Shown here: piece by piece, positions 1 through 45,662 of the stretch | How the letters are laid out: every line of letters starts with the position of its first letter | How positions within the stretch are numbered: the stretch's first letter is position 1 | Assembly (NCBI RefSeq): GCF_037975245.1 | Contig: NC_092572.1 | Coordinates: forward strand, 9,754,001-9,818,000 | Length of the DNA: 64,000 nucleotides | Source: Apostichopus japonicus | Lineage: Eukaryota > Echinodermata > Holothuroidea > Aspidochirotida > Stichopodidae | Direction: 5' to 3' | Notes under the pieces: generated by a model | The model's input: the letters and a program-made list of their open reading frames with translations, nothing else | Database searches by the model: none | Told to the model about the DNA's origin: nothing | Translations under genes and position numbers: made by a program

Positions 1-2637
1 GCTCGGCGCACTGTACGAGCTGATGATCGAGACTCTCTTTTGCATCCGTGGTTCGAACCCCGGGTGATGACGTCTTTTCCCGATCTTTTACAGCAAGTGC
101 CTGCACGGGGAGCTGTAAGTATTAGATTAATCCACCTAATATCTCAGTCCATACAGTGGCGCGATGGCTCGGCGCACTGTACGAGCTGATGATCGAGACT
201 CTCTTTTGCATCCGTGGTTCGAACCCCGGGTGATGACGTCTTTTCCCGATCTTTTACAGCAAGTGCCTGCACGGGGAGCTGTAAGTATTAGTTAATCCAC
301 CTAATATCTCAGTCCATACAGTGGCGCGATGGCTCGGCGCACTGTACGAGCTGATGATCGAGACTCTCTTTTGCATCCGTGGTTCGAACCCCGGGTGATG
401 ACGTCTTTTCCCGATCTTTTACAGCAAGTGCCTGCACGGGGAGCTGTAAGTATTAGTTAATCCACCTAATATCTCAGTCCATACAGTGGCGCGATGGCTC
501 GGCGCACTGTACGAGCTGATGATCGAGACTCTCTTTTGCATCCGTGGTTCGAACCCCGGGTGATGACGTCTTTTCCCGATCTTTTACAGCAAGTGCCTGC
601 ACGGGGAGCTGTAAGTATTAGTTATCCACCTAATATCTCAGTCCATACAGTGGCGCGATGGCTCGGCGCACTGTACGAGCTGATGATCGAGACTCTCTTT
701 TGCATCCGTGGTTCGAACCCCGGGTGATGACGTCTTTTCCCGATCTTTTACAGCAAGTGCCTGCACGGGGAGCTGTAAGTATTAGTTAATCCACCTAATA
801 TCTCAGTCCATACAGTGGCGCGATGGCTCGGCGCACTGTACGAGCTGATGATCGAGACTCTCTTTTGCATCCGTGGTTCGAACCCCGGGTGATGACGTCT
901 TTTCCCGATCTTTTACAGCAAGTGCCTGCACGGGGAGCTGTAAGTATTAGTTAATCCACCTAATATCTCAGTCCATACAGTGGCGCGATGGCTCGGCGCA
1001 CTGTACGAGCTGATGATCGAGACTCTCTTTTGCATCCGTGGTTCGAACCCCGGGGTGATGACGTCTTTTCCGATCTTTTACAGCAAGTGCCTGCACGGGG
1101 AGCTGTAAGTATTAGTTAATCCACCTAATATCTCAGTCCATACAGTGGCGCGATGGCTCGGCGCACTGTACGAGCTGATGATCGAGACTCTCTTTTGCAT
1201 CCGTGGTTCGAACCCCGGGTGATGACGTCTTTTCCCGATCTTTTACAGCAAGTGCCTGCACGGGGGAGCTGTAAGTATTAGTTAATCCACCTAATATCTC
1301 AGTCCATACAGTGGCGCGATGGCTCGGCGCACTGTACGAGCTGATGATCGAGACTCTCTTTTGCATCCGTGGTTCGAACCCCGGGTGATGACGTCTTTTC
1401 CGATCTTTTACAGCAAGTGCCTGCACGGGGAGCTGTAAGTATTAGTTAATCCACCTAATATCTCAGTCCATACAGTGGCGCGATGGCTCGGCGCACTGTA
1501 CGAGCTGATGATCGAGACTCTCTTTTGCATCCGTGGTCGAACCCCGGGTGATGACGTCTTTTCCCGATCTTTTACAGCAAGTGCCTGCACGGGGAGCTGT
1601 AAGTATTAGTTAATCCACCTAATATCTCAGTCCATACAGTGGCGCGATGGCTCGGCGCACTGTACGAGCTGATGATCGAGACTCTCTTTTGCATCCGTGG
1701 TTCGAACCCCGGGTGATGACGTCTTTTCCCGATCTTTTACAGCAAGTGCCTGCACGGGGAGCTGTAAGTATTAGTTAATCCACTAATATCTCAGTCCATA
1801 CAGTGGCGCAGATGGCTCGGCGCACTGTACGAGCTGATGATCGAGACTCTCTTTTGCATCCGTGGTTCGAACCCCGGGTGATGACGTCTTTTCCCGATCT
1901 TTTACAGCAAGTGCCTGCACGGGGAGCTGTAAGTATTAGTTAATCCACCTAATATCTCAGTCCATACAGTGGCGCGATGGCTCGGCGCACTGTACGAGCT
2001 GATGATCGAGACTCTCTTTTGCATCCGTGGTCGAACCCCGGGTGATGACGTCTTTTCCCGATCTTTTACAGCAAGTGCCTGCACGGGGAGCTGTAAGTAT
2101 TAGTTAATCCACCTAATATCTCAGTCCATACAGTGGCGCGATGGCTCGGCGCACTGTACGAGCTGATGATCGAGACTCTCTTTTGCATCCGTGGTTCGAA
2201 CCCCGGGTGATGACGTCTTTTCCCGATCTTTTACAGCAAGTGCCTGCACGGGGAGCTGTAAGTATTAGTTAATCCACCTAATATCTCAGTCCATACAGTG
2301 GCGCGATGGCTCGGCGCACTGTACGAGCTGATGATCGAGACTCTCTTTTGCATCCGTGGTTCGAAACCCCGGGTGATGACGTCTTTTCCCGATCTTTTAC
2401 AGCAAGTGCCTGCACGGGGAGCTGTAAGTATTAGTTAATCCACCTAATATCTCAGTCCATACAGTGGCGCGATGGCTCGGCGCACTGTACGAGCTGATGA
2501 TCGAGACTCTCTTTTGCATCCGTGGTTCGAACCCCGGGTGATGACGTCTTTTCCCGATCTTTTACAGCAAGTGCCTGCACGGGGAGCTGTAAGTATTAGT
2601 TAATCCACCTAATATCTCAGTCCATACAGTGGCGCGA

Positions 2638-2728
2638 TGGCTCGGCGCACTGTACGAGCTGATGATCGAGACTCTCTTTTGCATCCGTGGTTCGAACCCC
2701 GGGTGATGACGTCTTTTCCCGATCTTTT
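2638..2728 (+). promoter_or_regulatory. Representative internal Pol III promoter-like elements of the satellite monomer
   Basis: One monomer is annotated as an example. TGGCTCGGCGC (from 2638) resembles a degenerate A box; GCTC 2640-2643 pairs with GAGC 2656-2659 like a tRNA D-stem around a 12-nt loop. GGTTCGAACC at 2689-2698 is a perfect B box, about 50 nt after the A box, within the tRNA range. T runs at 2714-2717 and 2725-2728 could act as Pol III terminators. The T-arm pairs imperfectly and I see no proper anticodon arm, so it is tRNA-derived rather than a tRNA gene. Transcription is inferred, not shown. Confidence 0.5.
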
Positions 2729-5700
2729 ACAGCAAGTGCCTGCACGGGGAGCTGTAAGTATTAGTTAATCCACCTAATATCTCAGTCCATACAGTGGCGC
2801 GATGGCTCGGCGCACTGTACGAGTTGATGATCGAGACTCTCTTTTGCATCCGTGGTTCGAACCCCGGGTGATGACGTCTTTTCCCGATCTTTTACAGCAA
2901 GTGCCTGCACGGGGAGCTGTAAGTATTAGTTAATCCACCTAATATCTCAGTCCATACAGTGGCGCGATGGCTCGGCGCACTGTACGAGCTGATGATCGAG
3001 ACTCTCTTTTGCATCCGTGGTTCGAACCCCGGGTGATGACGTCTTTTCCCGATCTTTTACAGCAAGTGCCTGCACGGGGAGCTGTAAGTATTAGTTAATC
3101 CACCTAATATCTCAGTCCATACAGTGGCGCGATGGCTCGGCGCACTGTACGAGCTGATGATCGAGACTCTCTTTTGCATCCGTGGTTCGAACCCCGGGTG
3201 ATGACGTCTTTTCCCGATCTTTTACAGCAAGTGCCTGCACGGGGAGCTGTAAGTATTAGTTAATCCACCTAATATCTCAGTCCATACAGTGGCGCGATGG
3301 CTCGGCGCACTGTACGAGCTGATGATCGAGACTCTCTTTTGCATCCGTGGTTCGAACCCCGGGTGATGACGTCTTTTCCCGATCTTTTACAGCAAGTGCC
3401 TGCACGGGGAGCTGTAAGTATTAGTTAATCCACCTAATATCTCAGTCCATACAGTGGCGCGATGGCTCGGCGCACTGTACGAGCTGATGATCGAGACTCT
3501 CTTTTGCATCCGTGGTTCGAACCCCGGGTGATGACGTCTTTTCCCGATCTTTTACAGCAAGTGCCTGCACGGGGAGCTGTAAGTATTAGTTAATCCACCT
3601 AATATCTCAGTCCATACAGTGGCGCGATGGCTCGGCGCACTGTACGAGCTGATGATCGAGACTCTCTTTTGCATCCGTGGTTCGAACCCCGGGTGATGAC
3701 GTCTTTTCCCGATCTTTTACAGCAAGTGCCTGCACGGGGAGCTGTAAGTATTAGTTAATCCACCTAATATCTCAGTCCATACAGTGGCGCGATGGCTCGG
3801 CGCACTGTACGAGCTGATGATCGAGACTCTCTTTTGCATCCGTGGTTCGAACCCCGGGTGATGACGTCTTTTCCCGATCTTTTACAGCAAGTGCCTGCAC
3901 GGGGAGCTGTAAGTATTAGTTAATCCACCTAATATCTCAGTCCATACAGTGGCGCGATGGCTCGGCGCACTGTACGAGCTGATGATCGAGACTCTCTTTT
4001 GCATCCGTGGTTCGAACCCCGGGTGATGACGTCTTTTCCCGATCTTTTACAGCAAGTGCCTGCACGGGGAGCTGTAAGTATTAGTTAATCCACCTAATAT
4101 CTCAGTCCATACAGTGGCGCGATGGCTCGGCGCACTGTACGAGCTGATGATCGAGACTCTCTTTTGCATCCGTGGTTCGAACCCCGGGTGATGACGTCTT
4201 TTCCCGATCTTTTACAGCAAGTGCCTGCACGGGGAGCTGTAAGTATTAGTTAATCCACCTAATATCTCAGTCCATACAGTGGCGCGATGGCTCGGCGCAC
4301 TGTACGAGCTGATGATCGAGACTCTCTTTTGCATCCGTGGTTCGAACCCCGGGTGATGACGTCTTTTCCCGATCTTTTACAGCAAGTGCCTGCACGGGGA
4401 GCTGTAAGTATTAGTTAATCCACCTAATATCTCAGTCCATACAGTGGCGCGATGGCTCGGCGCACTGTACGAGCTGATGATCGAGACTCTCTTTTGCATC
4501 CGTGGTTCGAACCCCGGGTGATGACGTCTTTTCCCGATCTTTTACAGCAAGTGCCTGCACGGGGAGCTGTAAGTATTAGTTAATCCACCTAATATCTCAG
4601 TCCATACAGTGGCGCGATGGCTCGGCGCACTGTACGAGCTGATGATCGAGACTCTCTTTTGCATCCGTGGTTCGAACCCCGGGTGATGACGTCTTTTCCC
4701 GATCTTTTACAGCAAGTGCCTGCACGGGGAGCTGTAAGTATTAGTTAATCCACCTAATATCTCAGTCCATACAGTGGCGCGATGGCTCGGCGCACTGTAC
4801 GAGTTGATGATCGAGACTCTCTTTTGCATCCGTGGTTCGAACCCCGGGTGATGACGTCTTTTCCCGATCTTTTACAGCAAGTGCCTGCACGGGGAGCTGT
4901 AAGTATTAGTTAATCCACCTAATATCTCAGTCCATACAGTGGCGCGATGGCTCGGCGCACTGTACGAGCTGATGATCGAGACTCTCTTTTGCATCCGTGG
5001 TTCGAACCCCGGGTGATGACGTCTTTTCCCGATCTTTTACAGCAAGTGCCTGCACGGGGAGCTGTAAGTATTAGTTAATCCACCTAATATCTCAGTCCAT
5101 ACAGTGGCGCGATGGCTCGGCGCACTGTACGAGCTGATGATCGAGACTCTCTTTTGCATCCGTGGTTCGAACCCCGGGTGATGACGTCTTTTCCCGATCT
5201 TTTACAGCAAGTGCCTGCACGGGGAGCTGTAAGTATTAGTTAATCCACCTAATATCTCAGTCCATACAGTGGCGCGATGGCTCGGCGCACTGTACGAGCT
5301 GATGATCGAGACTCTCTTTTGCATCCGTGGTTCGAACCCCGGGTGATGACGTCTTTTCCCGATCTTTTACAGCAAGTGCCTGCACGGGGAGCTGTAAGTA
5401 TTAGTTAATCCACCTAATATCTCAGTCCATACAGTGGCGCGATGGCTCGGCGCACTGTACGAGTTGATGATCGAGACTCTCTTTTGCATCCGTGGTTCGA
5501 ACCCCGGGTGATGACGTCTTTTCCCGATCTTTTACAGCAAGTGCCTGCACGGGGAGCTGTAAGTATTAGTTAATCCACCTAATATCTCAGTCCATACAGT
5601 GGCGCGATGGCTCGGCGCACTGTACGAGCTGATGATCGAGACTCTCTTTTGCATCCGTGGTTCGAACCCCGGGTGATGACGTCTTTTCCCGATCTTTTAC

Positions 5701-8700
5701 AGCAAGTGCCTGCACGGGGAGCTGTAAGTATTAGTTAATCCACCTAATATCTCAGTCCATACAGTGGCGCGATGGCTCGGCGCACTGTACGAGTTGATGA
5801 TCGAGACTCTCTTTTGCATCCGTGGTTCGAACCCCGGGTGATGACGTCTTTTCCCGATCTTTTACAGCAAGTGCCTGCACGGGGAGCTGTAAGTATTAGT
5901 TAATCCACCTAATATCTCAGTCCATACAGTGGCGCGATGGCTCGGCGCACTGTACGAGCTGATGATCGAGACTCTCTTTTGCATCCGTGGTTCGAACCCC
6001 GGGTGATGACGTCTTTTCCCGATCTTTTACAGCAAGTGCCTGCACGGGGAGCTGTAAGTATTAGTTAATCCACCTAATATCTCAGTCCATACAGTGGCGC
6101 GATGGCTCGGCGCACTGTACGAGCTGATGATCGAGACTCTCTTTTGCATCCGTGGTTCGAACCCCGGGTGATGACGTCTTTTCCCGATCTTTTACAGCAA
6201 GTGCCTGCACGGGGAGCTGTAAGTATTAGTTAATCCACCTAATATCTCAGTCCATACAGTGGCGCGATGGCTCGGCGCACTGTACGAGCTGATGATCGAG
6301 ACTCTCTTTTGCATCCGTGGTTCGAACCCCGGGTGATGACGTCTTTTCCCGATCTTTTACAGCAAGTGCCTGCACGGGGAGCTGTAAGTATTAGTTAATC
6401 CACCTAATATCTCAGTCCATACAGTGGCGCGATGGCTCGGCGCACTGTACGAGCTGATGATCGAGACTCTCTTTTGCATCCGTGGTTCGAACCCCGGGTG
6501 ATGACGTCTTTTCCCGATCTTTTACAGCAAGTGCCTGCACGGGGAGCTGTAAGTATTAGTTAATCCACCTAATATCTCAGTCCATACAGTGGCGCGATGG
6601 CTCGGCGCACTGTACGAGCTGATGATCGAGACTCTCTTTTGCATCCGTGGTTCGAACCCCGGGTGATGACGTCTTTTCCCGATCTTTTACAGCAAGTGCC
6701 TGCACGGGGAGCTGTAAGTATTAGTTAATCCACCTAATATCTCAGTCCATACAGTGGCGCGATGGCTCGGCGCACTGTACGAGCTGATGATCGAGACTCT
6801 CTTTTGCATCCGTGGTTCGAACCCCGGGTGATGACGTCTTTTCCCGATCTTTTACAGCAAGTGCCTGCACGGGGAGCTGTAAGTATTAGTTAATCCACCT
6901 AATATCTCAGTCCATACAGTGGCGCGATGGCTCGGCGCACTGTACGAGCTGATGATCGAGACTCTCTTTTGCATCCGTGGTTCGAACCCCGGGTGATGAC
7001 GTCTTTTCCCGATCTTTTACAGCAAGTGCCTGCACGGGGAGCTGTAAGTATTAGTTAATCCACCTAATATCTCAGTCCATACAGTGGCGCGATGGCTCGG
7101 CGCACTGTACGAGTTGATGATCGAGACTCTCTTTTGCATCCGTGGTTCGAACCCCGGGTGATGACGTCTTTTCCCGATCTTTTACAGCAAGTGCCTGCAC
7201 GGGGAGCTGTAAGTATTAGTTAATCCACCTAATATCTCAGTCCATACAGTGGCGCGATGGCTCGGCGCACTGTACGAGCTGATGATCGAGACTCTCTTTT
7301 GCATCCGTGGTTCGAACCCCGGGTGATGACGTCTTTTCCCGATCTTTTACAGCAAGTGCCTGCACGGGGAGCTGTAAGTATTAGTTAATCCACCTAATAT
7401 CTCAGTCCATACAGTGGCGCGATGGCTCGGCGCACTGTACGAGCTGATGATCGAGACTCTCTTTTGCATCCGTGGTTCGAACCCCGGGTGATGACGTCTT
7501 TTCCCGATCTTTTACAGCAAGTGCCTGCACGGGGAGCTGTAAGTATTAGTTAATCCACCTAATATCTCAGTCCATACAGTGGCGCGATGGCTCGGCGCAC
7601 TGTACGAGTTGATGATCGAGACTCTCTTTTGCATCCGTGGTTCGAACCCCGGGTGATGACGTCTTTTCCCGATCTTTTACAGCAAGTGCCTGCACGGGGA
7701 GCTGTAAGTATTAGTTAATCCACCTAATATCTCAGTCCATACAGTGGCGCGATGGCTCGGCGCACTGTACGAGCTGATGATCGAGACTCTCTTTTGCATC
7801 CGTGGTTCGAACCCCGGGTGATGACGTCTTTTCCCGATCTTTTACAGCAAGTGCCTGCACGGGGAGCTGTAAGTATTAGTTAATCCACCTAATATCTCAG
7901 TCCATACAGTGGCGCGATGGCTCGGCGCACTGTACGAGTTGATGATCGAGACTCTCTTTTGCATCCGTGGTTCGAACCCCGGGTGATGACGTCTTTTCCC
8001 GATCTTTTACAGCAAGTGCCTGCACGGGGAGCTGTAAGTATTAGTTAATCCACCTAATATCTCAGTCCATACAGTGGCGCGATGGCTCGGCGCACTGTAC
8101 GAGCTGATGATCGAGACTCTCTTTTGCATCCGTGGTTCGAACCCCGGGTGATGACGTCTTTTCCCGATCTTTTACAGCAAGTGCCTGCACGGGGAGCTGT
8201 AAGTATTAGTTAATCCACCTAATATCTCAGTCCATACAGTGGCGCGATGGCTCGGCGCACTGTACGAGCTGATGATCGAGACTCTCTTTTGCATCCGTGG
8301 TTCGAACCCCGGGTGATGACGTCTTTTCCCGATCTTTTACAGCAAGTGCCTGCACGGGGAGCTGTAAGTATTAGTTAATCCACCTAATATCTCAGTCCAT
8401 ACAGTGGCGCGATGGCTCGGCGCACTGTACGAGCTGATGATCGAGACTCTCTTTTGCATCCGTGGTTCGAACCCCGGGTGATGACGTCTTTTCCCGATCT
8501 TTTACAGCAAGTGCCTGCACGGGGAGCTGTAAGTATTAGTTAATCCACCTAATATCTCAGTCCATACAGTGGCGCGATGGCTCGGCGCACTGTACGAGCT
8601 GATGATCGAGACTCTCTTTTGCATCCGTGGTTCGAACCCCGGGTGATGACGTCTTTTCCCGATCTTTTACAGCAAGTGCCTGCACGGGGAGCTGTAAGTA

Positions 8701-39472: not shown

Positions 39473-40038
39473 TTAAAGGTCAAGCGACACGTAAACTTGA
39501 CTTTGCATAATATTAAACTTAACAATTCTTACATTAACAAAAACCCAACACCGCGATTTTTTTCCGTCTCCAAAGGGGTAGAAATCGGTAAAAAGTACTA
39601 TTACGTAATAGATTCAGTGACGTCACGGGGGAGCGCAGAAGAGTGCAAACTGTATATGTTCTGCGCAGTGCATTGGGTATGGAGAAATCTCAAACTTCTC
39701 GAAAATATTACCTTTTTCAGCAGTCTGTTACAAGAAAGTTAAGATTTGGATTAAGATGAAAAATCACAAATTGATACATAAGACATCGAACAAAACATCC
39801 ATTGACTTCTTTTTTCATAAATTCCTTGCATTTTCTTCCTATCAAGCAACAAAAAACTCCGCAAAAATCGGCTAGATTGACTCGTTCAGGGAAAGCCGAA
39901 AACAAATGACGTCATTTGTTTACCAAGTAGAAAGTGAACGATATCGTCGCATACGATATTGCTACCACACACAGTTTCTATACACGCACTGTAGTACGCA
40001 TATATACACAGCACAGCAAAGCTTATACATATCGCGAA

Positions 40039-41876
40039 ATGGCTGCCGGTGGCATTGACACACAGTATTTAGATACCAACGGCGAAGAAGTAAGGGAAAT
40101 GGAGGACGATCGTGGGGAAGTTTTTCCCTATATGTTCGAGCCGGAGACCAGCGAAGAGGAAGCGGGATCGGACAGCGATGTCGAAATTGATCGTCTTGAC
40201 GGAATATAACGGTAACGTTACGCCAAGCGTACTATACTTTGTATAGGATAGTTGTGTCACTAGTTAGGCCTAGAACCGATAAATGTTTCCTAACTTTGCT
40301 CATACACTTAGCTAGCCAATTTGTTGATGGGGCAGCAAAATTAACATGAATGTGCGGTCGAGTAAAGTTAAGGAAGTTACTATTTTCCTTAAAAGTTGTG
40401 GCAGCACATGCCCCAGGAACATGTCACACAGACATGTTTCATTTGGTTAGTAGATTGAAGGAGCCAATTGGAAGAGTGCACAACAAATTCAGAGGTGGCC
40501 TATTATTAATTTCCTAGCAGTTGTAGGCCTAAGTGGCAAATTAGTGAAGTTACCACAAATCAGGGAAAGGGTGGGGGGGGGGGGAGGGAGAAGGTGGCAC
40601 CTCACACCAGCTTTTTGTCATTTCCGCTTGAGCTAATTTCATAACCAGATTTTCTCAATCTAGGGAATGGATTCAGAAGTGGGAAAGAGTTGGAAACGAG
40701 GCAGTATCGGCCTGTTTTATTTTCCTTTGCAGCATTGTCCCAACAGAGGCAAGACTTCTAAGAAGAGGCTACCCCTTCCTTACTAGTGATGTTACTTGTA
40801 AGGAGCTTCAACAGTACAGTAGATTGCCCTTCAGAGGTGCCACTTTTCTATTTTGACATGTTAGTACAGTATGTCCCAATAAATGAGGTTGGTATGAAGT
40901 CATTGAATTGGCTCTTTATTATTTGAACTGGTTTGTATTGTTTACAGGTGTCATTGTGGCCAATGTGCTGTGATGCCTACAGCAAGGGAGTGTAGATGCT
41001 GCAGCGAAATAGATAAGGACTGTGATGGATGAAGAAGGTGCTGCATGCATCACCTTACACCCAGGTTTTGAAGCTATGTGCCTGAACCCATTGTTTCTTC
41101 AGACAGCCTACTACTGTACATGTACCGTCAACAGTATGGTGGACGTGCACAGGAAAACAGGATCCAAGAGTAAGTCTAGAATACATTATTTTTGTTGTTA
41201 TTCATTGCTCTGACCTGCTGTTGAAAGATGTAACAATACAGAGGGTGTATTCATAGTTTAGTTTTGTTTCGTTGTGAAAGGAATAACATTAAGATATAGA
41301 TTTGATCAAGAAAATTTGTGCACCATGTTCAAAACCTGCTTCTGATTAGGTCATTTTGACCAAAAACTGGTGTAATGCCCTTGAGGTTAACCCTTATCAT
41401 GCTGACTGACATAGTAATCATTAACACTGAGCCATGGAACCAAATGCCACAAAAAAAATGTCCACCATGCTTGTGTACGATCCATTTACAAATTTTAGTC
41501 CCCGAGATGATGACAATGATTAGTTTGTATAAATGGCATAGCTAGGCTTACTTTAGGGGAGGCAGATTTAGGGGCCAAGCAAATTCTGGAAATCATATAG
41601 AAATTTATTTTAAAATTGACGTCCCCAGATGGCTACCAAGCTTTTGTGTGTCTTCATCTTTTATAGCTGGTTTTCATATGATTATTTTACAGGAAATACA
41701 GACACACAGCATACAGACAACTTGCACGGATGAGCTAGCAGTTTTTAGGGAAGGAGTTTTGTGTTGTTCTCCCATCCTATGCAGTAAGGAGGATTAGAGA
41801 AGCTTTACCATCTGAACAGTATGAAGGATTTAAATTATCAAGACTGAGAATGTGGACTGTTTATGCCAAGTCATAG
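40039..41876 (+). pseudogene. P2X7 ballast-domain-like (Cys-rich zinc domain) pseudogene
   Basis: Three exons are visible: 40039-40211, 40948-41169 and 41693-41876. Exon 1 encodes a start followed by an acidic segment with FPYMFEPETSEEEAG. Exon 2 begins CHCGQCAVMPTARECRCCSE, then ITLHPGFEAMCLNPLFLQTA; exon 3 has YRHTAYRQLAR and LPSYAVRRIREALPS. These are the hallmark blocks of the cytoplasmic ballast domain of P2X7 receptors, also found as stand-alone genes in many invertebrates. No P2X channel domain is present. The copy is dead: TAA at 40207-40209, frameshifts near 41015-41022 and 41110, and TAG at 41736-41738 where relatives have Trp. Splice sites and phases still join, so decay is mostly point changes. 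It sits inside the TTAA-flanked element, convergent with the THAP gene. Confidence 0.85.
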
Positions 41877-42732
41877 TATCATTTCTGCCAAGTTTTATAG
41901 AAACAGGGTTCAGTGCTGTCTGTTTTGTGGCTGAATGGTGAACATTTTGGAATTCCAGCTTACATTTTTCTGGTTCATGGTATTAACTACAATCTTGGAT
42001 GAAATTTTACATTTTCAAGTTTGGGAAGTACATAACAGTAATAAATAATAAAAACTCAAGTTAATTTTTTGTATGTATTCTCTCTTGTAAGCAAAGCTGT
42101 CACTTCTAGTAGCCTGCCAACAAAATCTGGATGATTGAAATCTCAAATATACTAGGTTAAAATAGAAGAATAGTTTGAATTAAGTACCCTAAACCACTAT
42201 GTCAATGGGATCTGGAGAGCTTAGGCTTTCTTTTATTTTAATAAAATTGTAATGAGAATCAATCTGAAATTGTTCATTAATCCATGGAATATCAAGGTTA
42301 CTTGATCATAAATGAGATAAAAAAAATCATATTTTATCCCATGCGGGGAACAAACAGCAATTTCTGTCAATTCTTTTCGAGAAAAACAAAAAATTGGCAA
42401 CATGTTTGAAACACCAAAGTTGCATACAAATAGTAAGTCTGCATGAAATTTACATTTATGAAGTCTAAGCTCTCTAGAAAGGAATACTTGTCATTGGAAC
42501 TTTTTTTTAAATATAATGTTATCATTACTAATAGTTAGTTACAATGGAAACCAGATGTAAGTAAAACTTGAATGTAAAACTTGCAACTTCCCTAAAGGCT
42601 GGTAGCGACCTGTTAATTAACACTGGTCTGCAGCTGTGCCATACACCATGTGAACAGACGATTCACAGAGTCGATTGCTCCCCACTACAATGAAACAAAA
42701 TTAGAACTTGGGAGGCCATCAACTACAGTACT

Positions 42733-45290
42733 TCAGCAAAGCTTTTGAAATCTGCTTCGGTGTTGTTTTATGGCATCCTCATTGTTCGGATGAACATAGG
42801 AGCTTGCAAGGGGTGGGGGCTCTTTTCTGACAGGAACAGGACACTCCTCTCCCAGAGTTCCACTTCTGCAGAAGTTGTTGCAAGCAGTCAAGAAGTTCCC
42901 ATACATAATCTGTAGAATAGTAAAGATATGAAGAATAATATAATAATAGTTCATAAAAACATACCATTTAGATAGAGGCATTCCAATCACTCCATTTCGG
43001 TCAATAGGCATGGCACAGTTGTCGGTCAAGTCTTTGGATGCCCAACTAATGCGACAGCTGAGTACACCTCAATTCGTGTGGATACATGGGTCAGGTTTTA
43101 CCTGACAACTTGTGCCTGAACAATTCCGATATATTTTTTACTGATTACAACAAAAACCCTACACCTGTTTGTGCACCTAATATTATGGATTATGTAATCT
43201 TCAGCAGGATGTGTGGTCATTGTCTCAGTAGCTTAACCACTGTTTATGTAGTAAAGTAAACATGTGGACAGAGTAGCATCCTGTCCCATCCCCTTGTAAT
43301 CCCATGGTAAAAGAATGTATAAGATGCAACTTTCACCATTTGTATTCAGTAGCAGATATCCAGCCAAGTTAAGATATAATATACTCTGTAAAATCCAACT
43401 ACTTGTTTGTGCCTTTATTTCTTGTTCACATACAGCTGTGACAACTCTACCAGATACAGTATGTATATGCTAATTGAAGTAAAGACTGATGGCCTCACCA
43501 CACATCCCAGACTGCCCCACAGTGTTGGTGTCAAAATTAATAACGATCCTCTTTCCAGAAAGTTATGGCACCAATTGATTTTCCAGACTAATCTACTATC
43601 AATCTTGAAAATTACCTTGAAGGGTCATCTTTGTCATGTTCAGATGAGTTAACTGATGGAGTGTAGTCCGGACTACCTGGCGGTTTTTCGGTGTATCCTG
43701 ATGTGGATGCCACAGCAGCAGACGGACCATCATCGCCACTGTGAGATGGCCCTGGTTGCTTTGATGGTGTTCTTGTCTATGTTGGTCCAGTCAGCAACTT
43801 CAATGGTGGTAGGGGGACCAGTGAACACTGGACTTCTACATGTGTTACATTCACTGAAAATTAGAATAAACGCTTATTATACCACACACATACAGTATAG
43901 GTTGCTCTTGGACAGGGGTCAGCTGCCTAGATGGTTCACTTATCTTTTCTGAAGGAGAGCATATCCTCCTGCTTTATGTGGCTGCAACCATGAGCATTGC
44001 AAATGACTTCAGCTTGGTTTCATATAGTATAACTACAATGTAATCTCCCTTCTCTCAGTAACTATTGCTGTAGCCTTTATATTTTCCTGTGAAGCCATCA
44101 GGTATAGCCTCCTCAACCACTCTCGTCAGGCAGGCGGATATGATGGATAAAATACAATGTATATTATCCCCTAGTCAGCCTGCCCGATGTGCAGTTTTGA
44201 TTGCTATTTTGCTTTCAACAAGTACTGTTTCTAAAATTTTGGCCCCTGTACTCACTTCTGCTATAGAATACTCTATAGATGTATGAAAGTTTTCCATTCT
44301 TGCTTGTATTACCCTAGCTTACACTTCTCTACCACATTTTCTCCCCCAACCCCCCTGCCTCCTTTTTGTCTGGTAGCTTGCCCCCCCCCCACATATACAT
44401 GCCTCAATGTTTTACTGGTGGAGATTCCTTGTATCCCGTTCAAAACTGACTACTTAAATCTTTAATGCCTGTCACCACCCTCCCCTCCCCCATTTCCCAA
44501 CTGTTTTTCGGTAATATCAAGCACATGTCTATAAGATCATGCTACCTTTAGATGGAGATGTACATTCTGCAGAATCCTGCCTTTATTTTCACTGCAGTTG
44601 GTTGGGGAACAGCTTCTAGTTTAATCTAAGTATTGAAAATTGGGAAAGAAAATAACAAGGAAGTTATGAAAGTTCATTTAAGAAAGCAGTTTGATATGTT
44701 TGAAAGTACCTGTCACAAGCGTTTTCTCTTGCAACAAAAATTGCAGCCCTACCAACAAAAATGGCAAAATATAAGGATGTCATTTACTGTGAAACATATG
44801 AGCTATGACTCTTGAGTATATAGATAGGTGGGAGCACATTATAATATTGGGCAAAATGACATGTAAACATCTTATGCTTGTTATTCTGGATTTTTTCATG
44901 ATGTACCACAAATCAGTTAATATAGCCCTAGCCTACGCCTAACTTCATCGTCGCCGTACCTAATTTAGGGCCTAATTAACTGAACGAAATTATAAGAATC
45001 AGGCTACTGTAAGATAGTAATAATACCAAGTTAGTCATTGTTGTAGTAGGCCTAGGCCAGAAAATACACTTACTCTTTTCCCATCCAGCTTCGCAACTAC
45101 TGGTCTACTTGTTTTTATATCTCCTCGAGATTTGAAGATACTTTCTCCAAATAGAGAAGGAACGGCATTGTCTTGTAGACGGCGAGCTGTTGGTGTTCCA
45201 AGTCCAAGTTGCGCGGATAGGCGATAGGAAATCGAAACTTTAACTGGTGAAGGGCGCGCTGCACACATAAGATTCGCTCGAAGGTCCAAG
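42733..45290 (-). pseudogene. Decayed THAP-domain, transposase-like gene
   Basis: Several minus-strand exon pieces can be read. At 45290-45074 the frames contain VCSAPFTS and, after a shift, TARRLQDNAVPSLF, matching the C-x2-H-F part and the AVPxxF end of a THAP DNA-binding domain; the second zinc His is Pro here. It ends at a GTAAGT donor. At 43853-43616 an exon bounded by TTTTCAG and GTAATT encodes FTGPPTTIEVADWTNIDKN, then after a one-base shift a Ser/Pro-rich linker with SPDYTPSVNSSEHDKDD. At 43029-42967 and 42909-42733 are GVIGMPLSK and a tail with PPPLASSYVHPNNEDAIKQH, ending in HRSRF. THAP domains occur in Kolobok- and P-type transposases. The catalytic core was not identified, so transposase is inference. 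Frameshifts show it is not functional. Confidence 0.5.
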
Positions 45291-45662
45291 CCAATCTTTA
45301 CTTATAGGCAGCTAGGCTGGCTGAGTGCACTGGTACTAAGCTATCGCTGTATACAGTGTTGACGAACACGAAACTTTCTTGTACTGTTGTGCACCCATTC
45401 TCATCTGATATTTTGTTTACTGTTCGTGACGTTTTGTTTACGGCTTTGATCTCGGTTAGCATATTAGGCATACTTAGTTTTGGTAACATTGGCGGTTCCC
45501 CCGTGACGTCATTATCTTTCGGAATTAGCTTGGTTATTAACTTAATTAAAACAGCAAAGAAACAATTGTGGAACTCCAAATTTGGAATATAGGGTTTTGA
45601 TATGTAGCTTTTCAATTTGTGTAAGTTTGAAGGAAATCTGTTACGTGTCACTTGACCTTTAA

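Follow-up and report, generated by a model that had tools for sequence, protein, structure and literature searches.

We examined a transposon-like element in a 64,000-nt stretch of Apostichopus japonicus DNA, hereafter the window, together with its relatives in the genome from which the window comes (G000, 671.6 Mb). A preliminary description, made from the letters of the window alone, had presented the element as flanked by TTAA, with inverted ends and a shared subterminal block, and as carrying two convergent spliced genes, one for the Cys-rich ballast domain of the P2X7 receptor and one for a THAP protein. Its structural part largely held. The ends form an inverted repeat, the shared block TGACGTCACGGGGGA lies 142 bp from one end and 148 bp from the other, and the two genes, which we refer to as KolX (ballast) and transposase, are convergent and spliced-looking (Table 1). 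The ballast sequence was confirmed on the plus strand, exon 2 reading CHCGQCAVMPTARECRCC..., though its frame is broken.

The THAP gene was recovered only in part. A C-terminal half with the AVPSLF box is present, but no intact domain; a Pfam scan of the THAP frame of the window copy gave no domain, and an alignment gap of about 180 bp against a related copy, L049, corresponds to the first half. The catalytic transposase exons are likewise missing in the alignment with L049, and tblastn with the transposase of another locus, L016, gave no match to the window copy at E 1. Because the first half of THAP and the catalytic exons are missing, the window copy is, judged by these alignments, a non-autonomous deletion derivative.

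Table 1. Features of the element in the window
Feature	Position	Strand	Basis or remark
Entire transposon copy, 6182 bp, very probably a non-autonomous Kolobok	39477..45658		genome copies and exact ends
TTAA target-site copy, left	39473..39476
TTAA target-site copy, right	45659..45662
Left terminal inverted repeat AGGTCAAGCGACACGTAA	39477..39494	+	17/18 identical to right end
Right terminal inverted repeat AGGTCAAGTGACACGTAA	45641..45658	-	comparison with left end
Subterminal palindrome TGACGTCA, left	39618..39625		position 142 from left end
Subterminal palindrome TGACGTCA, right	45504..45511		148 from right end
KolX (ballast) putative exon 1, acidic N-terminus	40039..40212	+	open frame; limits and splice donor inferred
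KolX exon 2, Cys-rich ballast start (CHCGQC...CRCC)	40948..41169	+	frame broken in window copy
KolX last exon (YRHTAYRQL...LPSYAVRRIRE...YEGFKL)	41693..41878	+	in-frame TAG
Transposase THAP exon remnant, C-terminal half with AVPSLF	45074..45301	-	N-terminal half deleted
Putative transposase exon 2 remnant (SECNTCRSPVFTGPPTTIEV...)	43612..43857	-	homologous stretch in L049; limits inferred
Putative last transposase exon remnant, end NNEDAIKQHRSRFQKL	42733..42915	-	by eye, from intact transposase C-termini (..KCHKSRF)

Sister copies and empty sites

The preliminary description had suggested a search for other copies and for an intact copy with both genes. A search of the genome with the element as query yielded 12 other copies. 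Eleven places match query positions 1-6182 end to end, and the twelfth matches 209-6182 plus 1-41, with a gap near the left end. Further partial matches are present, and with 26 of 292 candidates scored the copy counts are lower bounds. All 13 copies, including that in the window, have exactly the same ends, TTAA followed by AGGTCAAG at the start and CTTGACCT followed by TTAA at the finish, in flanks that vary from copy to copy. The sister copies are 97.5-99.3% identical to the window copy, gaps excluded. The terminal pattern TTAAAGGTCAAGNGACACG occurs 186 times in the genome with at most one mismatch, compared with 2 occurrences of a reversed control.

For the empty sites, the two flanks of each of the 12 other copies were joined with one TTAA and used as queries (40 of 2076 candidates scored). 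Matches spanning the junction were found for six of the 12 (L001, L002, L003, L006, L008 and L009), at 93-98% identity. In L003, L006 and L009 the match is as long as the query; in L001 the lengths differ by 1 base, in L002 by 3 and in L008 by 7. These lengths exclude a second TTAA, the single TTAA thus following from length and not from the letters. An empty site for the window copy itself was not found in the genome; its left flank is partly a repeat, which ends 8 bases short of the junction.

KolX is broken in all 13 copies of this subfamily, with a frameshift in exon 2 and a stop in the last exon. In older copies with the same ends, both tested KolX exons are uninterrupted in L022 and L025; in L023 exon 2 is uninterrupted and the second tested exon has an in-frame gap, and in L024 the first tested exon is split. 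The window copy is crippled yet recently mobile.

Ballast genes and Kolobok-type transposases

We searched the genome for ballast domains with the Pfam family P2RX7_C (150 scored matches from 471 candidates, a lower bound) and for transposases with that of L016 as query (93 pieces; the neighbourhoods were surveyed with 82 of the 93 rows, and again with all 93). The neighbourhood counts cover ballast ranks 1-89 of the 150. A Kolobok-type transposase was present within 6 kb of 30 of the 50 best ballast matches, and the nearest one was convergent, tail to tail, in all 30. The range from 6 to 12 kb added two pairs in convergent orientation and one neighbour on the same strand. When individual stretches were read, a transposase, whole or in pieces, stood tail to tail with the ballast gene in L016, L013, L014, L017 and L018. 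Copies of the same family are counted repeatedly among the 30 pairs, with at least four lineages behind them; identity between the representatives L013, L016, L029 and L031 is 44-59% for the transposases and 46-62% for the ballast proteins.

Four KolX families, represented by the window, L016, L029/L030 and L019, have different inverted ends, all at TTAA. The L016 element measures 14,114 bp with ends AGGCGATATCGCTCGT and AGGTGGGATCGCTCGT, which match at 13 of 16 positions (the next best of 66 TTAA sites reaches 8); its right end was defined from three copies with different flanks and its left end from one. The L029/L030 element, 10,703 bp in L030, has ends AGGGGCGTGGTCGTCA and AGAGGCGTGGTCGTGA with a match of 14/16 (next best, 8), the left end coming from two copies with different flanks and the right end from one. 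The L019 element, 3.2 kb and read in one copy, has ends AGAGGCCATGACACGA and AGTGGCCATGACACGA, matching at 15 of 16 positions among 529 TTAA pairs. The termini are AG..CT in all four families, which is the 5'-RR..YY-3' form. Convincing TTAA-bounded ends were not found for L013 and L031 within the stretches read, and a first pass for TTAA-bounded inverted ends gave none for L014, L015, L016 (where that stretch was too short), L017, L018, L020 and L021. Taking into account both the 30 of 30 convergent neighbours and the four families with different ends at TTAA, we conclude that Kolobok-type transposons regularly have the ballast gene as a partner, as the preliminary description had proposed.

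The L019 element (C6:10834000-10841500, positions 1462-4682) carries a decayed ballast exon, and dozens of equally scoring ballast domain matches in the genome presumably belong to its family. Beside it, at about 5076-6884, open frames resemble by eye an endonuclease and reverse transcriptase of the long interspersed element type. In L016, the left part of the 14 kb element (positions 1-1590) contains a repeat present in dozens of other places of the genome.

The proteins themselves were then compared. Five aligned transposases all share D198 (in GDxRxDSPGH), D265 (TDxH), D288 of a DxxH motif and E416 (LESF); the His of DxxH is present in four of the five, L041 having Pro. Because the order of the motifs matches that described for Kolobok (PMC9587614), in which C/DxxH stands between the second D and the E, D198, D265 and E416 together with DxxH would be the catalytic-type residues. 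The Pfam family 'Mutator-like transposase' (PF20700) matched the proteins of L016 (E 3.6e-8) and L031 (E 3.6e-11), and a Pfam scan of the L029 transposase gave no match. A PDB search with the L016 transposase returned nothing up to E 1. A script pattern for an intact THAP found none in L016 or L030; the same pattern misses the THAP of L049, so that the blank is no evidence of absence.

The KolX proteins of L016, L014 and L013 match P2RX7_C with E values from 5e-33 to 2e-35. A PDB search with the L013 protein, taken up to E 1, found P2X7 alone (best 1.5e-23). Seven Cys residues (L013 positions 53, 55, 58, 69, 70, 77 and 143) are kept, in 13/13, 13/13, 15/15, 15/15, 15/15, 14/15 and 14/14 of the rows with letters. 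A viral-contig scan with L013 KolX gave no relative. By sequence, KolX is a ballast protein of zinc type and small size, with homology to the C-terminus of P2X7. Within families, the ratio of nonsynonymous to synonymous substitution (dN/dS) for KolX is below 1 in nine of 11 pairs, which share sequences, and falls to 0.03. As the ratios are mostly below 1, a protein in use is favoured over pure cargo.

A second regularity concerns the palindrome TGACGTCA. In the window family, 12 of 13 copies have it 142-144 bp from the left end and all 13 have it 148 bp from the right end, and in L019 it lies 183 bp from both ends, though the inverted repeats of L019 differ from those of the window family. When the outer 250 bp were shuffled in blocks 20,000 times, no shuffle had TGACGTCA in both ends, for either family. 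It is absent from L016 and in L030 is found at the right end only. The palindrome is the cAMP-response element and may serve as a promoter or binding site.

Seven transposase relatives have a same-strand THAP match 2.5-5.2 kb upstream and no ballast match (ranks 1-89) within 12 kb; they lie at C7:5561592, C16:8066965, C17:20577774, C16:3188260, C7:974897, C7:5987637 and C16:26391097. These loci, found with 53 of 145 THAP rows, may be Kolobok families without KolX. The only ballast match of ranks 51-89 with a transposase within 6 kb, C17:20707092, is convergent, and a THAP match follows further on at C17:20715157. Along C17:20707092-20715426, a match to a KolX exon is thus followed by one to a transposase, with stops, and then by one to THAP, the full set of the window element type.

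Probable identity of the element and possible role of KolX

We consider it very probable that the window copy is an internally deleted, non-autonomous, THAP-bearing Kolobok that carries KolX and is Kol0-like, and that the complete kind has a THAP and DDE transposase tail to tail with KolX. Kolobok elements, a superfamily attributed to Kapitonov and Jurka (2007, as cited in PMC9587614), are described as having TTAA duplications and RR..YY ends, and the Kol0 lineage as encoding a transposase together with KolX, a protein that has seven conserved Cys and the fold of the cytoplasmic ballast of P2X7 (Kojima and Bao 2022, PMC9587614). The present elements share these features with Kol0. TTAA is duplicated in 13 of 13 copies, the termini are of the RR..YY form, a DxxH-type DDE transposase is present in the KolX-paired relatives, and KolX with its seven Cys is encoded. 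The window copy differs from Kol0 in being deleted and broken. The THAP domain is complete in L049, an 86-89% relative of the window copy with the same left end, which has a THAP exon (Pfam E 3.9e-16) and further exons with GDGRRDSPGH, VTDRH and DVWH, so that its DDE motifs extend up to DVWH.

A number of observations weigh against this reading. The searches gave no autonomous copy with exactly the window ends, an intact THAP transposase and an intact KolX, such as the preliminary description had proposed to look for. KolX is absent from the 9 kb of L049 that were read, and the transposase pieces of C17:20707092-20715426 carry stops. As KolX is dead in 13 of 13 copies of the subfamily, it is not needed in cis. 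Twenty of the 50 best ballast matches have no transposase match within 6 kb; among these, L014, L015 and L018 hold convergent fragments when read, that of L015 being weak (E 0.001), and L020 showed no transposase fragment. In ranks 51-89, mostly short last exons or decayed copies, a transposase lies within 6 kb in only one of 39, and L021, read from this lower-ranked class, had none. In two of the 11 KolX pairs dN/dS exceeds 1, with 10 and 7 substitutions in total. In favour of the reading, KolX and transposase distances correlate across 15 loci (r = 0.92, with none of 5000 permutations as high), but this looks stronger than warranted, since the test treats near-identical copies of about four lineages as independent.

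One alternative is that the transposons merely carry KolX along as passive cargo, a former host gene without a role in transposition. The window subfamily did multiply with a dead KolX, L049 shows none in the 9 kb read, and of the eight loci at which a THAP exon lies upstream of the transposase, seven lack a ballast match (ranks 1-89) within 12 kb. However, at least four lineages, with protein identities of only 44-62%, have the same convergent order, purifying selection is seen in nine of 11 pairs, and in both L016 and L029 the KolX frame is open along with the main frame of the transposase. Passive carriage is unlikely in our judgement, though it is the most serious of the alternatives.

A piggyBac-type element would also account for the TTAA target, and a few piggyBac families are described as encoding a KolX-like C-terminus (Kojima and Bao 2022, PMC9587614). 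The ends of the present elements, AG..CT, are of the RR..YY form given for Kolobok in contrast to piggyBac, the relatives carry THAP and a DxxH-type DDE transposase, and no piggyBac family appeared among the Pfam results of the transposase proteins scanned. We regard this assignment as highly improbable. We give just as little credence to the view that the ballast genes are an ordinary host family near which transposons merely happened to insert. The ballast exon of locus L045, a single copy with no transposase match within 6 kb, and the many lower-ranked ballast matches without a transposase would fit such a family, but the ballast gene lies inside the repeated unit in the aligned copies, and convergent orientation in 30 of 30 pairs is not expected from chance insertion.

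Binding of the ends, cutting and insertion are the general behaviour of DDE transposons. For a Kolobok with KolX, the transposase would bind the inverted ends through THAP, excise the element and insert it at TTAA, duplicating the TTAA. Intact relatives would mobilize the window copy in trans. KolX, made from the opposite strand, would be a protein partner that helps transposition. The spread of copies whose KolX is dead suggests that it is supplied in trans, unless it can be dispensed with. As a guess, KolX might be a zinc-stabilized adaptor of the transposase-DNA complex.

Relation to P2X7 and to known systems

The preliminary description knew of no account of a link between the ballast domain and Kolobok. 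Such an account exists: in Kojima and Bao (2022, PMC9587614), KolX is identified with the ballast fold and given as the origin of this domain in P2X7, an immune receptor of vertebrates, which is said to have arisen when KolX became fused to a P2X4-like gene. The ballast-Kolobok link is thus correct but was already published in 2022. Our literature search for a link between Kolobok KolX and P2X7 found only this paper; PMC9319628 also came up, with a single occurrence of each term. The symmetric TGACGTCA palindromes are not mentioned in the parts of it at hand.

The L013 KolX aligns over the C-terminal ballast of P2X7 (PDB 6u9v and 9e3m) and shares its seven conserved Cys, whereas it is a small separate protein. 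Free-standing ballast proteins, termed NANOR-like or ZCD, are described across animals, including invertebrates (Rump et al. 2020, PMC7016195), and KolX resembles them in this respect; a word search of that text gave neither 'transposon' nor 'transposable'. Xenopus Kolobok transposases (PMC6004289) carry THAP, DDE and H2CH motifs, the first two in common with the present transposases, and a word search of that text gave neither 'KolX' nor 'P2X'.

The locus L045 (C19:11523600-11524450) has an open last exon of 213 aa with a good splice acceptor and AATAAA downstream. Its ballast domain is diverged, the best other genome matches over the whole domain being 36-38% identical. Ten frames from the 10 kb upstream (stretch L048) gave no Pfam domain up to E 0.1, and L045 is not near the P2X matches. 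We tentatively raise the possibility, which we hold to be somewhat less than even, that L045 is a domesticated ballast gene independent of P2X7, in which case host genes would have acquired ballast domains on more than one occasion, always from the KolX of one of these transposons. The five P2X matches in this genome are all on contig C15, and none of the listed ballast matches is among them, so that a ballast-P2X fusion is unsupported here. These matches, spread over about 90 kb at C15:15099425-15190968, represent at least one canonical P2X gene in which the introns are very long.

What this analysis adds is the genome-wide convergent layout, the empty sites, the symmetric TGACGTCA in two families, and L045 as a possible host gene; copy-level evidence of this kind was not seen in the portion of PMC9587614 available to us. 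One animal genome now confirms that the fold seen in the P2X7 ballast is that of a transposon partner gene. What this fold originally did, probably a task in DNA transposition, can now be put to the test, and genes annotated as 'P2X7-like' in invertebrates may be reinterpreted as copies of Kolobok.

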